The notes below the pieces were generated by a model. It did no database searches. It was given only the letters and a program-made list of their open reading frames with translations, and was not told the origin of the DNA. Source: Chloroflexota bacterium (GTDB lineage Bacteria; Chloroflexota; Anaerolineae; Aggregatilineales; J027). Taken from it: DNA of 64,000 bases. Below are positions 58,715 through 64,000 of this stretch, piece by piece. Numbering within the stretch: position 1 is the stretch's first letter; each line of letters begins with the position of its first letter. The position numbers were made by a program, and so were the translations under genes. The DNA is taken from contig JABFGB010000004.1 in NCBI GenBank assembly GCA_013112715.1, positions 186,001-250,000 on the forward strand, read 5' to 3'.

Positions 58715-58792
58715 CGGGGCGTAGCGCAGCCCGGTTAGCGCGCTGTGTTCGGGACGCAGAGGTCCCCGGTTCGAATCCGGGCGCCCCGACCA
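58715..58792 (+). tRNA. tRNA-Pro (anticodon CGG)
   Basis: Acceptor arms CGGGGCG/CGCCCCG, D-arm AGCGCAGCCCGGTTAGCGC, anticodon stem CTGTG/CGCAG with loop TTCGGGA, and T-arm CCCGGTTCGAATCCGGG. Anticodon CGG reads Pro codon CCG. Discriminator A at 58789 and encoded CCA at 58790-58792. Confidence 0.97.
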
Positions 58793-59195: not shown

Positions 59196-60452
59196 ATGAT
59201 TCACGCAATCGCCCCCCAAAGTACCATCCTAGCGGATGACGAAATTCTCAATACCCTACAGCATGGTCTGGGAGGGCAATTTACCAACGCGAGAGTGCTG
59301 GTGCTGATTCCCGACCACACCCGCACGATTCCCCTGCCGCTGCTGTTTCGAGGTGTGACGACCGCCCTGCACGACACCCAACGGCTCGATTTTATGGTAG
59401 CGCTCGGAACACATCCAGCCTTGAATGAAGCCTCGTTAAACAAACTGGTCGGCATTACAGCGCAAGAACGGACGAGTCAATTTAAACATATTGGCCTGCT
59501 TAACCACGAATGGGACAATCCGAATGCCCTGACTACGCTTGGCACGATTCAAAAAGCCCAAATTCAGGAGATTGCAGGGGCGGTCTGGCATCCATCGCTC
59601 GGTGGGGATGTAGCTATTCGGATCAACAAGCGTATTTTGGATTACGACCATTTAGTAATTCTCGGCCCAGTTTTTCCACATGAAGTTGTTGGGTTTTCCG
59701 GCGGGGCCAAATATTTGTTTCCGGGGATTTCCGGGCCAGAGATGATTAACGTCACGCATTGGCTTGGTGCGCTCATTACCATTTTGGATACCATTGGCGT
59801 CAAGAATACCCCAGTGCGAGATGTCATCAACGTTGCGGCAGCCTGTGTGCTCAAGCCGATTACGCTGATTGCCCCTGTTGTGGTCAAAGAAGGGATTGCC
59901 GGGTTGTTTATTGGTGACCATCTCACTGCGTGGAGTGCGGCGGCGGATTTATCGTCCGAGCGTCATATCATCTGGGTAGATAAACCATTCAAGCGTGTGC
60001 TGTCGGTTGCCCCGCCGATGTACGATGAATTGTGGACTGCCGCTAAAGCCATGTACAAGTTGGAACCGGCGATTATGGATGGCGGTGAGGTGATTGTCTA
60101 TGCCCCTGAACTGGTGGTGGTGAGCCATGTACACGGCAAATATATCTATGAAGCAGGCTATCATGTGCGCGATTTCTATCTCAAGCAGTGGGAGAAGTAT
60201 GGGCATATTCCACTAGGGGTACTGGCACATGGCACGCATCTTCGTGGAAGTGGTGTGTATGAAAACGGCGTTGAAAGGGCACGTATTGACGTTATCCTAG
60301 CGACCGCTATTCCGGCGGAAGATTGTGCCGTTTTATCGCTAGGCTACCAGAATCCCCACGCCATCAACGTTGAGGATTGGCAGAGACGTGAGGATGAAGG
60401 TATTTTGTATGTACCCAAAGCGGGGGAAATGCTCTATAGGGTTCGTAGATGA
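59196..60452 (+). CDS. LarA-like (DUF2088) lactate racemase-family protein
   Basis: 418 residues. The LarA N-terminal motif LIPDHTRTIPLPLLFR (DHTR), the VALGTHPALNE strand, and the middle HEVVGFSGGAKYLFPGISG region are characteristic. LarA uses a nickel-pincer cofactor made by LarB, LarC and LarE to racemise 2-hydroxyacids. None of those genes is near. The closing part has THLRGSGVYENGVERARI, found in this superfamily. It may be a relative with another substrate. ATG at 59196. Single gene. Confidence 0.88.
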   Translation: MIHAIAPQSTILADDEILNTLQHGLGGQFTNARVLVLIPDHTRTIPLPLLFRGVTTALHDTQRLDFMVALGTHPALNEASLNKLVGITAQERTSQFKHIGLLNHEWDNPNALTTLGTIQKAQIQEIAGAVWHPSLGGDVAIRINKRILDYDHLVILGPVFPHEVVGFSGGAKYLFPGISGPEMINVTHWLGALITILDTIGVKNTPVRDVINVAAACVLKPITLIAPVVVKEGIAGLFIGDHLTAWSAAADLSSERHIIWVDKPFKRVLSVAPPMYDELWTAAKAMYKLEPAIMDGGEVIVYAPELVVVSHVHGKYIYEAGYHVRDFYLKQWEKYGHIPLGVLAHGTHLRGSGVYENGVERARIDVILATAIPAEDCAVLSLGYQNPHAINVEDWQRREDEGILYVPKAGEMLYRVRR

Positions 60453-60553: not shown

Positions 60554-61360
60554 TCATTCTCCAAGTAGCTTTTGGAGCGTCTCAAGACCTAGCGTGATGG
60601 CAATCACTCCCCCAATGGAGATATAGTGTGCATAGGGAAGAGCAGCCAATTGTTGGCTTGATTGGCGACGTAATCGTTGGTAAATCAAAAAGGCAATGGC
60701 ACCCAGTGCGCCTAGTTCAATGGCTATGATGGTGGCAAAAATCATCAAGCGCCAGCCACAAAAAACACCAACCATTGTGGCTGCCGTGATATTGCCCCAT
60801 CCAAAAGCATCCCCAGCCCTTTGATTAGCAACCGCCGCAAAAAGCAATCCACCTACATACATCAAGAAAAAGATGCCAAAACCAAGCCCTGCTCCAAGCG
60901 CTGCCTCTAACAAGCCACCTGTGCCGGGTAGCAGACTGGTTAGCAGACCAAGGACAATCCCACGTAGCACAATCAATGCAGGAACCGCATAATTTGCTGA
61001 TGGTGTACGAAGGTTGATCACACCCATGAGCAGCGCTAAATAGATAAATACTAACGCCCGCAGCAAAGCAAAACTAAAGCCATAGGTCAAAAGACATAAC
61101 ACCGCCAAACTTCCGAAAAGGAGTTCTTGAAAAGGAAACCATAAAGTGCGGGATTTCATGAAGTCTAGGGTTTCAGCACCCAACAATTGTTGGAGAAAGG
61201 GTGCTCGGTTCACCCATTCAAGGTTTTGCCGAAAGAAGCTACCAGAACGGTATTCCAGCGAATAACGCTTGAGCACTTGCAGTACAAACATATCGCCAAT
61301 GCTCGCCGTCATGGTAGCGGAGAGAAAAACTTTGAGTGCTAACTCAGGCGAAATGCTCAT
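60554..61360 (-). CDS. Multi-pass membrane protein downstream of TIR-NACHT gene
   Basis: Not recognised. 268 residues from ATG at 61360, with AGGGG upstream and 13 bp after the stop of the TIR-NACHT gene; GTG at 61369 is an alternative. About six or seven hydrophobic segments (for example LLFGSLAVLCLLTYGFSFAL, ALVFIYLALLMGVINL, FGIFFLMYVGGLLFAAVAN, LGALGAIAFLIYQRL). The Gly-rich turn GLLTSLLPGTGGLLEAALGA is striking. It is probably co-transcribed with and functionally tied to the TIR-NACHT protein, for example as a membrane effector or anchor. No homology claim. Confidence 0.7.
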   Translation of the reverse strand: MSISPELALKVFLSATMTASIGDMFVLQVLKRYSLEYRSGSFFRQNLEWVNRAPFLQQLLGAETLDFMKSRTLWFPFQELLFGSLAVLCLLTYGFSFALLRALVFIYLALLMGVINLRTPSANYAVPALIVLRGIVLGLLTSLLPGTGGLLEAALGAGLGFGIFFLMYVGGLLFAAVANQRAGDAFGWGNITAATMVGVFCGWRLMIFATIIAIELGALGAIAFLIYQRLRRQSSQQLAALPYAHYISIGGVIAITLGLETLQKLLGE

Positions 61361-61373
61361 ACGGCCCACCCCT

Positions 61374-64000
61374 CTAACGGGTTAGAAAATATACTGATCC
61401 GATGATGATGACGAGTATGATAAGCATGAAAATGACAATTTCGGGGCGATGGGTTCTCTGGGGGTTTATTAATCGTTCTACCGTCGCCCACATATCGCGT
61501 TCTGGTGGGATAGCATCGGTTATTCCCAAATCCAATAGACCATGATAGGCTCCTTGCCGCTTGCCGATGTCCATTTGATAATCCCCTAAGATGCTTCGCA
61601 ATTGGGAAACAATCTCAATTCGCTGAAAACTATTGGTGGGTTGCAGCTTGATGATGTGTACTAAGGCCCTAATAACGCTTCGATATTCCACTTCTGCCAA
61701 GTCTCTATCGATAAGCATCGCCCGCAACGGTTCAATTGCCTGTGGGCTACCACGATCCGCTAAGGCTTGGCTTGCTTGAAGGCGGGTGTTCTCAGCCCTT
61801 AGCATGAGGATAAGTTCGGATTCGTCCCGTACTGGCAATACCAAGCCATTTTCAATTGTCGTTCGAGTCAGTTCGCCGATGGAAAAATCGTAGGCGATCT
61901 GTCCAGATAATTGGGCCAAAATCCGCTCGGCTGTCTCATTACGGATATGCCGTAGGGCCGCGATATTCGGCTGGATAATTTGTAGATTGATAAATCGCTC
62001 TATACGCGGAATGGTCAAGGCATAGAGGCGGAAGAAAAGCACAGTAGCTGCCCCGCCAAGTAAGACCATAATTCCAAGTCCCAATGCGGTGGTTTCATTT
62101 GACGAAACCCATTGTTCCAATATCCCCAATGGGCTTAACCATACAATGGTGAGCATCAGCATCAGAAGCAGCCATGGCAACAGGCGCGGGAGCACTATGC
62201 CCCATCGGTAAATACTTTGATGTAATGGCGCGACATAACGATCCATCTGCTGGGTTGGAAATCCTTCAATATTGCTTAGGCATAGCGCACCAAGCTGCTT
62301 GTCTTGCCGCCAAACTTCATCAACAAATCGGCTGACTTCCTGTCGCCGCGTGGCGGGTTGATTGTCATCGGCCTGATCTTGCACCAGACCGCTCATAATA
62401 GCAATAATTTCGTGCCAGTGGCTATCGGCAATGTGTTTTTCTAGTGTTTGTCGGGCAGTCTTGCGTGTGGCTGGGGAAACATAGCGGGCAGCATCATGGT
62501 CAAATACCGACCAGCTTTGTTGTAAGAGAAAGGCCGCTGCAAAATATTCCTGCAAGGTCTGATGCCAAAAGCGTATGGTATCGGGGGTACTGACGGAAAC
62601 GAGTACACGATCACGCAATAATTCCGCAACGACGGGTGTTAAGTCATTTGGATTGATAAGTTTATAATGGGGTGGTCGTTTAGCATTGCTGCTCGCAAAG
62701 TGCTGAGGGTCGGCGGCTGTGGCACTTTGGAAAATTTCACGAACCCTTTGGATGGGCAGTTCCAAACCTTCAGCTTTCATCGCATATCCCAAGTGTTCCG
62801 ACAATCGGTGTTTGTCCTCCAGCCAATACTGGCGTTGGACATCTTCGGTGGTGGGCAGTTCCCATTCCCCCAGCAAGCCACGTGCCAAGCGTGCCAGAAG
62901 TTGGCCTCGACTGAAGGGAAATCTGCCGCTGGCATGTTGGTAAACCATGATCATCATCAGTAACAACAGCGGGTTCACAGCTAATTGTCGGATCTGCAAA
63001 TTTTCGGCTAGGATTTGGAGAAGTGATTGGCGTTCAGACTCCTTTTCCAGATAACACGCTAGATAGGCTTCGACATCGTGTGGGTAGGTCAGTTCCATTA
63101 ATTCAAAAACAGGCCACGACGTCCCACCCATCTGAAAATTATAGGCACGCGAACTGATGAGAATCAGGTGGTTAGGATGTTGACGTACAAACACGCGCAG
63201 ACCATCTAGGAATTGTATGAGGTGCTGCTCACCTAATTCATTTAAACCATCCAACAGCAGGACGAGCGAATATTGGGCCAATAGCTGTTCAAAATCATCG
63301 AGGCGTATTTCCGCCCCATGTCGTTGAGCGGCATCTTCCAGTAGACCGAGAATGCGTTCATAGGAACTGCGGCCATCAATAGCCGTAAAGTGGGGCAACC
63401 AAACAAAGATAGGAACAGGTTCATGGGTACTGGCAGGATATGCAGCGATGAACCCCCGCGCAAAACGGAGAGCCAATTGCTTAAGGGCGGTGGTTTTGCC
63501 AGAGCCGGGTTCGCCGATCAGTACCATGCGGCGATAATGCTTAACGGCCTGTTCCACGCTGAATTTCTGATGTGGAGTTTGGGTTCCGCCTTCTGATATT
63601 GTTCGTAGCCGAACCCGAATATCATAGGATGGGTTGCTATTGACCTGTAGCTCAAAATAGGGCTGTTGTGTCCAATCTGCGAAGTCTGGTTCTTGGATGA
63701 GATTGGTGACATAGTTCAGCACTATCGCTTGAACGGATCGCTCGTCTTTATCCGGGAGATTTTGTAGACCTAATGCGACAGCAACGGCCTGTAGCTGTCG
63801 GTTAGCTGAACGATAATAGGGAAGCTCTTGGAATTGAGAAATGAAGGCTTGCCCATCGTAGTTATCGAGTTGCGCTACGACCAGCGGCAGGATTTTGAAA
63901 GATGGTTCACTTTCAAAACGGCTTTGGGCAAGCTGAATTTCTTTGAGTACCCATTCGGAGTTTACAGAAAGGGGGGAAAGTATGACGAGGAAGTGGGTAC
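61374..64000 (-). CDS. TIR-NACHT protein with C-terminal membrane segments (N-terminus outside window)
   Basis: The frame is open from the stop at 61374 to the right edge, giving 874 visible residues; the 5' end is missing. The first 92 residues are the C-terminal half of a TIR domain: FLVILSPLSVNSEWVLKEI, with a Glu in the position of TIR NAD-hydrolase catalysts, then FKILPLVVAQLD. A NACHT NTPase follows: Walker A MVLIGEPGSGKTTAL and Walker B LVLLLDGLNELGE. Next come a helical region, two membrane helices (near LPRLLPWLLLMLMLTIVWL and GLGIMVLLGGAATVLFF), a HEAT-like stretch and a C-terminal helix (IVIFMLIILVIIIGSVYFL). Internal GTG at 63722 is not the true start. TIR-NACHT proteins are NLR-like immune NTPases; membrane anchoring here is unusual. 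Confidence 0.87.
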   Translation of the reverse strand, partial: THFLVILSPLSVNSEWVLKEIQLAQSRFESEPSFKILPLVVAQLDNYDGQAFISQFQELPYYRSANRQLQAVAVALGLQNLPDKDERSVQAIVLNYVTNLIQEPDFADWTQQPYFELQVNSNPSYDIRVRLRTISEGGTQTPHQKFSVEQAVKHYRRMVLIGEPGSGKTTALKQLALRFARGFIAAYPASTHEPVPIFVWLPHFTAIDGRSSYERILGLLEDAAQRHGAEIRLDDFEQLLAQYSLVLLLDGLNELGEQHLIQFLDGLRVFVRQHPNHLILISSRAYNFQMGGTSWPVFELMELTYPHDVEAYLACYLEKESERQSLLQILAENLQIRQLAVNPLLLLMMIMVYQHASGRFPFSRGQLLARLARGLLGEWELPTTEDVQRQYWLEDKHRLSEHLGYAMKAEGLELPIQRVREIFQSATAADPQHFASSNAKRPPHYKLINPNDLTPVVAELLRDRVLVSVSTPDTIRFWHQTLQEYFAAAFLLQQSWSVFDHDAARYVSPATRKTARQTLEKHIADSHWHEIIAIMSGLVQDQADDNQPATRRQEVSRFVDEVWRQDKQLGALCLSNIEGFPTQQMDRYVAPLHQSIYRWGIVLPRLLPWLLLMLMLTIVWLSPLGILEQWVSSNETTALGLGIMVLLGGAATVLFFRLYALTIPRIERFINLQIIQPNIAALRHIRNETAERILAQLSGQIAYDFSIGELTRTTIENGLVLPVRDESELILMLRAENTRLQASQALADRGSPQAIEPLRAMLIDRDLAEVEYRSVIRALVHIIKLQPTNSFQRIEIVSQLRSILGDYQMDIGKRQGAYHGLLDLGITDAIPPERDMWATVERLINPQRTHRPEIVIFMLIILVIIIGSVYFLTR

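Follow-up and report, generated by a model that had tools for sequence, protein, structure and literature searches.

A bacterial TIR-NACHT protein with predicted C-terminal membrane helices and an adjacent A24-like pseudoenzyme gene

At one end of a 64,000-nucleotide stretch of DNA (G000:C4:186001-250000, hereafter the window; the genome, G000, has 5.55 Mb in 76 contigs, and its relatives are Anaerolineae/Chloroflexi MAGs), a reading frame on the minus strand appeared to join part of a TIR domain, a NACHT switch and membrane helices. Does a single protein carry all of these parts, how unusual is such a layout, and what might the protein do?

Results

One reading frame spans the TIR domain and the NACHT switch

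The initial annotation had continued the gene beyond a GTG at 63722 by 92 in-frame residues, up to the window edge, and had seen in them the C-terminal half of a TIR domain, taking an upstream stop or frameshift, or a failed TIR profile search, as evidence to the contrary. The extension was correct: upstream of its stop at 61374 the frame contains no other stop, running past the GTG at 63722 as far as the edge (61374-64000, minus strand, residues 63-936 of 936). The contig runs on beyond the window, and the full ORF (C4:247374-250184) encodes 936 aa beginning MMPTSPRVFISHTTRDRRDRR..., its ATG lying 184 bases past the edge (the equivalent of window position 64184). Neither a stop nor a frameshift separates TIR from NACHT in this completed ORF, and the added sequence turns the half domain into a full N-terminal TIR. 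Three orthologues have an in-frame stop 54 nt before the start, which fits the 954-aa open frame in the window genome; 954 open codons would arise by chance with a probability of about 6e-22 at this composition. A candidate promoter (TTGGTA-18-TATACT) is found 5′ of the gene in all four carriers, chance matches of this kind being common.

Pfam TIR_2 matches residues 8-109 of the full protein (1.2e-16, 61.7 bits against a curated cutoff of 28), and Pfam TIR also matches (8.5e-6); the C-terminal part of the domain occupies 63858-64000 of the window (minus strand), and the Cat1 TIR matches at 5.8e-8. The predicted catalytic glutamate of SEWVLKEI sits in a C-helix WxxxE motif (WVLKE; W78 and E82, the latter at 63939-63941, minus strand) that aligns with that of Cat1 and other solved bacterial TIRs. 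Most bacterial TIRs depend on this C-helix glutamate for their NADase activity (PMC11374754), and the closest solved relatives by PDB sequence matches are the enzymatic Cat1, AbTIR and TIR-APAZ proteins. The predicted TIR chemistry of the protein has good support from its sequence. Cat1 (CRISPR-associated), AbTIR and TIR-APAZ/SPARTA share with it the TIR fold and WxxxE, but their activation modules differ. The whole genome yields 28 TIR_2 and 9 NACHT matches.

The NACHT assignment is likewise well supported, since PF05729 matches residues 218-346 (63147-63533, minus strand; 1.4e-6) with 28.7 bits, over the curated cutoff of 26.7, and the Walker A (GEPGSGKT, residues 224-231, 63492-63515) and Walker B (LLLDGLNE, residues 309-316, 63237-63260) motifs, both on the minus strand and reported intact before, proved invariant in the orthologues of four species. 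A FWHQTLQEYFAA motif (EYFAA; residues 539-550, 62535-62570, minus strand), aligned with FYHQLMQEYFAA of the relative L048, closes the NACHT-associated helical region. PADLOC and NCBIfam antiphage models gave no full-length match, only TIR or P-loop pieces, and the EruA model scored 41.7 bits against a cutoff of 1000. In the NACHT tree the protein clusters, with moderate support (94/81), not with the other TIR-NACHT proteins of its genus but with NACHT proteins bearing cNMP-binding and TPR domains. Three large proteins of the latter kind (L067, L069 and L075) have a C-terminal stretch that looks cyclase-like by eye, and their pre-NACHT motif EDPDF/Y..W recurs in the window protein as QEPDFADW.

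A conserved hairpin, a tail helix and a HEAT-like segment follow NACHT

Hydropathy confirms three hydrophobic helices where C-terminal membrane helices had been predicted, all on the minus strand: two form a hairpin (residues 663-681, 62142-62198, and residues 700-718, 62031-62087), and the third (residues 916-934, 61383-61439) is a candidate tail anchor. The hairpin region (residues 656-723) is 93% invariant among four species as against 54% for the fast-evolving tail helix, so that the hairpin does more than a greasy anchor would and is under sequence-specific constraint; the tail resembles a simple anchor. The loop at 684-697 has no K/R and two D/E, the segment after the second helix three K/R and one D/E, and the segment before the third helix four K/R and three D/E; from this charge pattern we infer that the TIR, NACHT and HEAT-like segments lie inside, with the hairpin loop and the last residues outside.

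The HEAT-like segment of the initial annotation (residues 786-905, 61470-61829, minus strand) fared less well. Pfam HEAT_2 reached 16.7 bits on the full protein, under its cutoff of 27.7, and although the top Foldseek matches of the region were mostly ARM/HEAT repeat proteins, none had an E below 0.2. The model of the C-terminus, usable for the helical repeat part only, shows paired helices (pLDDT about 72-81), and profile comparison detected no HEAT relation between the C-terminus and L048 (probability 0.3%). The full-length AlphaFold model (pLDDT 40, built from four near-identical rows) is unusable. We therefore call the stretch HEAT-like rather than HEAT, a weakly supported name.

The downstream gene encodes an A24-like pseudoenzyme

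The initial annotation missed the gene that follows, which encodes a polytopic protein resembling A24 (prepilin) peptidases (60554-61360, minus strand; 268 aa from the ATG at 61360, or 271 aa if translation starts at a GTG at 61369). Its ATG lies 13 nt past the TIR-NACHT stop, and a Shine-Dalgarno sequence (AGGGG) overlaps the TAG stop in 4/4 carriers, an arrangement from which we conclude that the two genes are probably translationally coupled.

Catalysis by A24 enzymes depends on a pair of aspartates. Prepilin peptidases belong to the diaspartyl proteases of the GxGD type (PMC2947513), and the downstream protein aligns with these type IV leader peptidases over the A24 region: its Pfam A24 score falls below cutoff (E = 2.4e-4, 21.9 bits against 26.5), but it is 32-38% identical to A24 paralogues of the genus (E down to 8e-21), one of which passes the Pfam cutoff. 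Both catalytic aspartates are, however, missing in all four species. The first is replaced by Asn119 (271-aa numbering; 61013-61015, minus strand; VINLR for VIDLE), or by Ser in CFX5, and the GxGD aspartate by Asn193 (60791-60793, minus strand; FGWGN or FGRGN). We aligned 32 further A24 homologues of the genus and class: all 32 keep the GxGD aspartate, and in almost all the first is visibly present too, with local misalignment in some. With both aspartates lost and a dN/dS of 0.08-0.17, we class the protein as a pseudoenzyme that is under purifying selection.

Between the CFX5 gene (L035:10816-11628) and the window gene (60554-61369) dS is 0.75, with neighbouring genes at 0.29-0.39. The CFX5 copy may have been swapped for a divergent allele, likewise catalytically dead, as sequence divergence suggests.

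The gene pair is stable within one genus

Orthologues of the TIR-NACHT protein occur at the same locus in three of four sister species (G002, G003 and G004, with 93, 93 and 91% identity), and the order mazG, TIR-NACHT, A24-like gene, larA-like gene is kept in the four carriers. The remaining species, G001, lacks both TIR-NACHT and the A24-like gene; its locus is rearranged, and because this rearrangement affects the mazG neighbourhood no clean empty site was found there. The dN/dS of TIR-NACHT (0.13-0.17) indicates purifying selection and is near that of its neighbours.

We found no TIR-NACHT orthologues in other genera, whether among 396 genomes drawn class-wide or among the 84,980 species genomes scanned for close relatives, and none on plasmids, phages or viral contigs, plasmids giving three NACHT-region matches at 23-26%. 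The C-terminal module gave two weak partial matches outside the genus, and among 191 genomes drawn from the phylum only the window's own.

The surrounding genes are mazG, rpsI, rplM, truA, a larA-like gene and a CDP-alcohol transferase, and no defence-island context was seen in the gene neighbourhood. The larA-like gene (59196-60452, plus strand) encodes a relative of LarA-superfamily nickel-pincer enzymes that matches a hexonate epimerase model at 2e-47, well under its cutoff, and a tRNA gene (58715-58789, plus strand) lies just upstream of it.

TIR-NACHT proteins with membrane helices probably arose more than once

The initial annotation could not name the domain arrangement. In part this was too strong, given that the genus also carries TIR-NACHT-HEAT (L048, L049), TIR-NACHT-FGE-sulfatase (L052) and TIR-NACHT-4TM (L050, L051, L092) proteins, but the C-terminal module of the window protein was, in the searches described above, nearly confined to the genus. 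Variable C-termini are typical of STAND sensors, and those of the genus's TIR-NACHT relatives vary between HEAT, FGE-sulfatase and TM. The protein with the FGE-sulfatase domain is encoded at L052:8871-11600 (G003:C35).

L048 and L049 resemble the window protein in domain order (TIR-NACHT-HEAT, the last part being HEAT-like in the window protein), and L048 is 25% identical to it over residues 1-555. They differ in that their HEAT regions match Pfam strongly (8e-22 and 1e-187) and that no comparable TM hairpin separates their NACHT region from HEAT. Among the ORFs called at the fetched loci, no A24-like partner was noticed. The unrelated TIR-NACHT-4TM proteins (about 740 aa; L092 is G000:C1:125360-127576) also combine TIR, NACHT and C-terminal TM helices. 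Their NACHT domains, however, belong to a clade far from that of the window protein (100/100), and their helices precede an F-H..L.EYFA motif whereas those of the window protein follow its EYFA motif. From clade and helix placement together, it is very likely that TIR-NACHT-TM layouts arose at least twice in this one Anaerolineae genus. Nearly all class-wide relatives of the 4TM proteins keep NACHT-TM and differ at the N-terminus; by eye, some of these swapped N-termini resemble cyclase or kinase domains. An ORF near the 4TM gene of G001 (L050:1-1515) has a start that looks DUF4062-like by eye.

Discussion

The type of receptor encoded here is already known, and each principle of the mechanism proposed below has precedent. 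bNACHT proteins are tripartite single polypeptides with an N-terminal effector, a NACHT switch and a C-terminal sensor (PMC12169576), and the window protein has the same order, from which we infer that its C-terminal module is the sensor. The central NACHT, N-terminal effector and C-terminal putative sensor are shared with, for example, bNACHT25, whose effector is a PD-(D/E)XK nuclease rather than a TIR (PMC12169576); relative to bNACHT25 the window protein adds the TM hairpin, the tail helix and a paired membrane pseudoenzyme. What is unusual is the layout of TIR, NACHT, TM hairpin, HEAT-like segment and tail helix, together with its combination with a pseudo-A24 gene. No description of a TIR-NACHT-TM protein combined with a pseudo-A24 was found in the open-access literature, and the term "TIR-NACHT" is absent for a bacterium from the open-access literature searched.

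Starting from what can be read in the sequence (a single ORF, its domain order, motifs and helices, the gene pair, the loss of the A24 aspartates and purifying selection), we favour, with reasonable though far from full confidence, an NLR-related NACHT STAND receptor, kin to immune receptors of animals and plants, at the inner membrane in which a change in the membrane or in a partner releases a TIR NADase, probably in phage defence or regulated death. The TIR, NACHT and HEAT-like segments would be cytoplasmic, tethered to the inner membrane by the conserved hairpin and the C-terminal tail helix, and the resting NACHT would be ADP-bound and monomeric. The hairpin/HEAT-like region would sense a change, most likely through the co-translated, dead prepilin-peptidase-like membrane protein, whose binding to the receptor is suggested by gene order alone. 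Once triggered, NACHT would bind ATP and oligomerise and so bring the TIR domains together; the assembled TIRs would hydrolyse NAD+ or produce a cADPR-type signal, and the loss of NAD+ or the signal would lead to growth stop or cell death in the style of abortive infection. Counting against this reading are the absence of a full-length antiphage model match, the grouping of the NACHT with cNMP-binding/TPR proteins and the low confidence of the HEAT-like and full models.

The pairing of the two genes bears on a simpler account, in which the protein is a single-gene bNACHT-type defence whose TM helices serve purely to anchor it, linkage having kept an unrelated A24-like gene next to it. The published description of bNACHT proteins as tripartite single polypeptides (PMC12169576) agrees with it, as does the greater divergence of the CFX5 A24-like gene relative to TIR-NACHT (80% vs. 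91% identity; dS 0.75 vs. 0.36). It has to explain, however, why the 13-nt junction with its Shine-Dalgarno sequence over the stop is conserved in four genomes, why both genes are absent together from G001 and why an otherwise useless pseudoenzyme is retained under purifying selection, and we regard it as a serious but unlikely alternative.

Defence is the likeliest role of the favoured membrane receptor, but the locus shows no island context, and the role may be a housekeeping envelope signal. For a defence gene TIR-NACHT is unusually stable and vertically kept, which counts against the defence reading. The protein might instead be a membrane switch for envelope stress or for pilus or secretion assembly, in which the TIR would make a signal or act as a scaffold and the pseudo-peptidase would read the prepilin pool. 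The housekeeping location, vertical retention in four of five species, a dN/dS near that of the neighbours and the cNMP-binding and TPR domains on the nearest NACHTs in the tree all point this way, but conflict systems typically pair effector and switch in just this way, as a TIR with intact WxxxE on a NACHT, and the genome has 28 TIR_2 matches; on balance we find this switch doubtful. That the hairpin is a second effector, the TM helices forming a pore on oligomerisation with the TIR as co-effector, would account for a 93% invariant region that exceeds what hydrophobicity requires, but is very improbable with only two helices plus a tail.

The favoured receptor also admits a more specific and quite speculative form, to which we give little credence: the A24-like protein may be a decoy, a dead copy of a host prepilin peptidase located beside a membrane TIR-NLR, such that a phage or competitor weapon acting on the pilus machinery or on the decoy would make NACHT fire and NAD+ be destroyed. 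If true, bacteria would have their own counterpart to the guard/decoy scheme of plant NLRs. More generally, the locus makes it possible to test a case in which a bacterial NLR would read the cell envelope, with a dead enzyme retained as its likely sensor or regulatory subunit.
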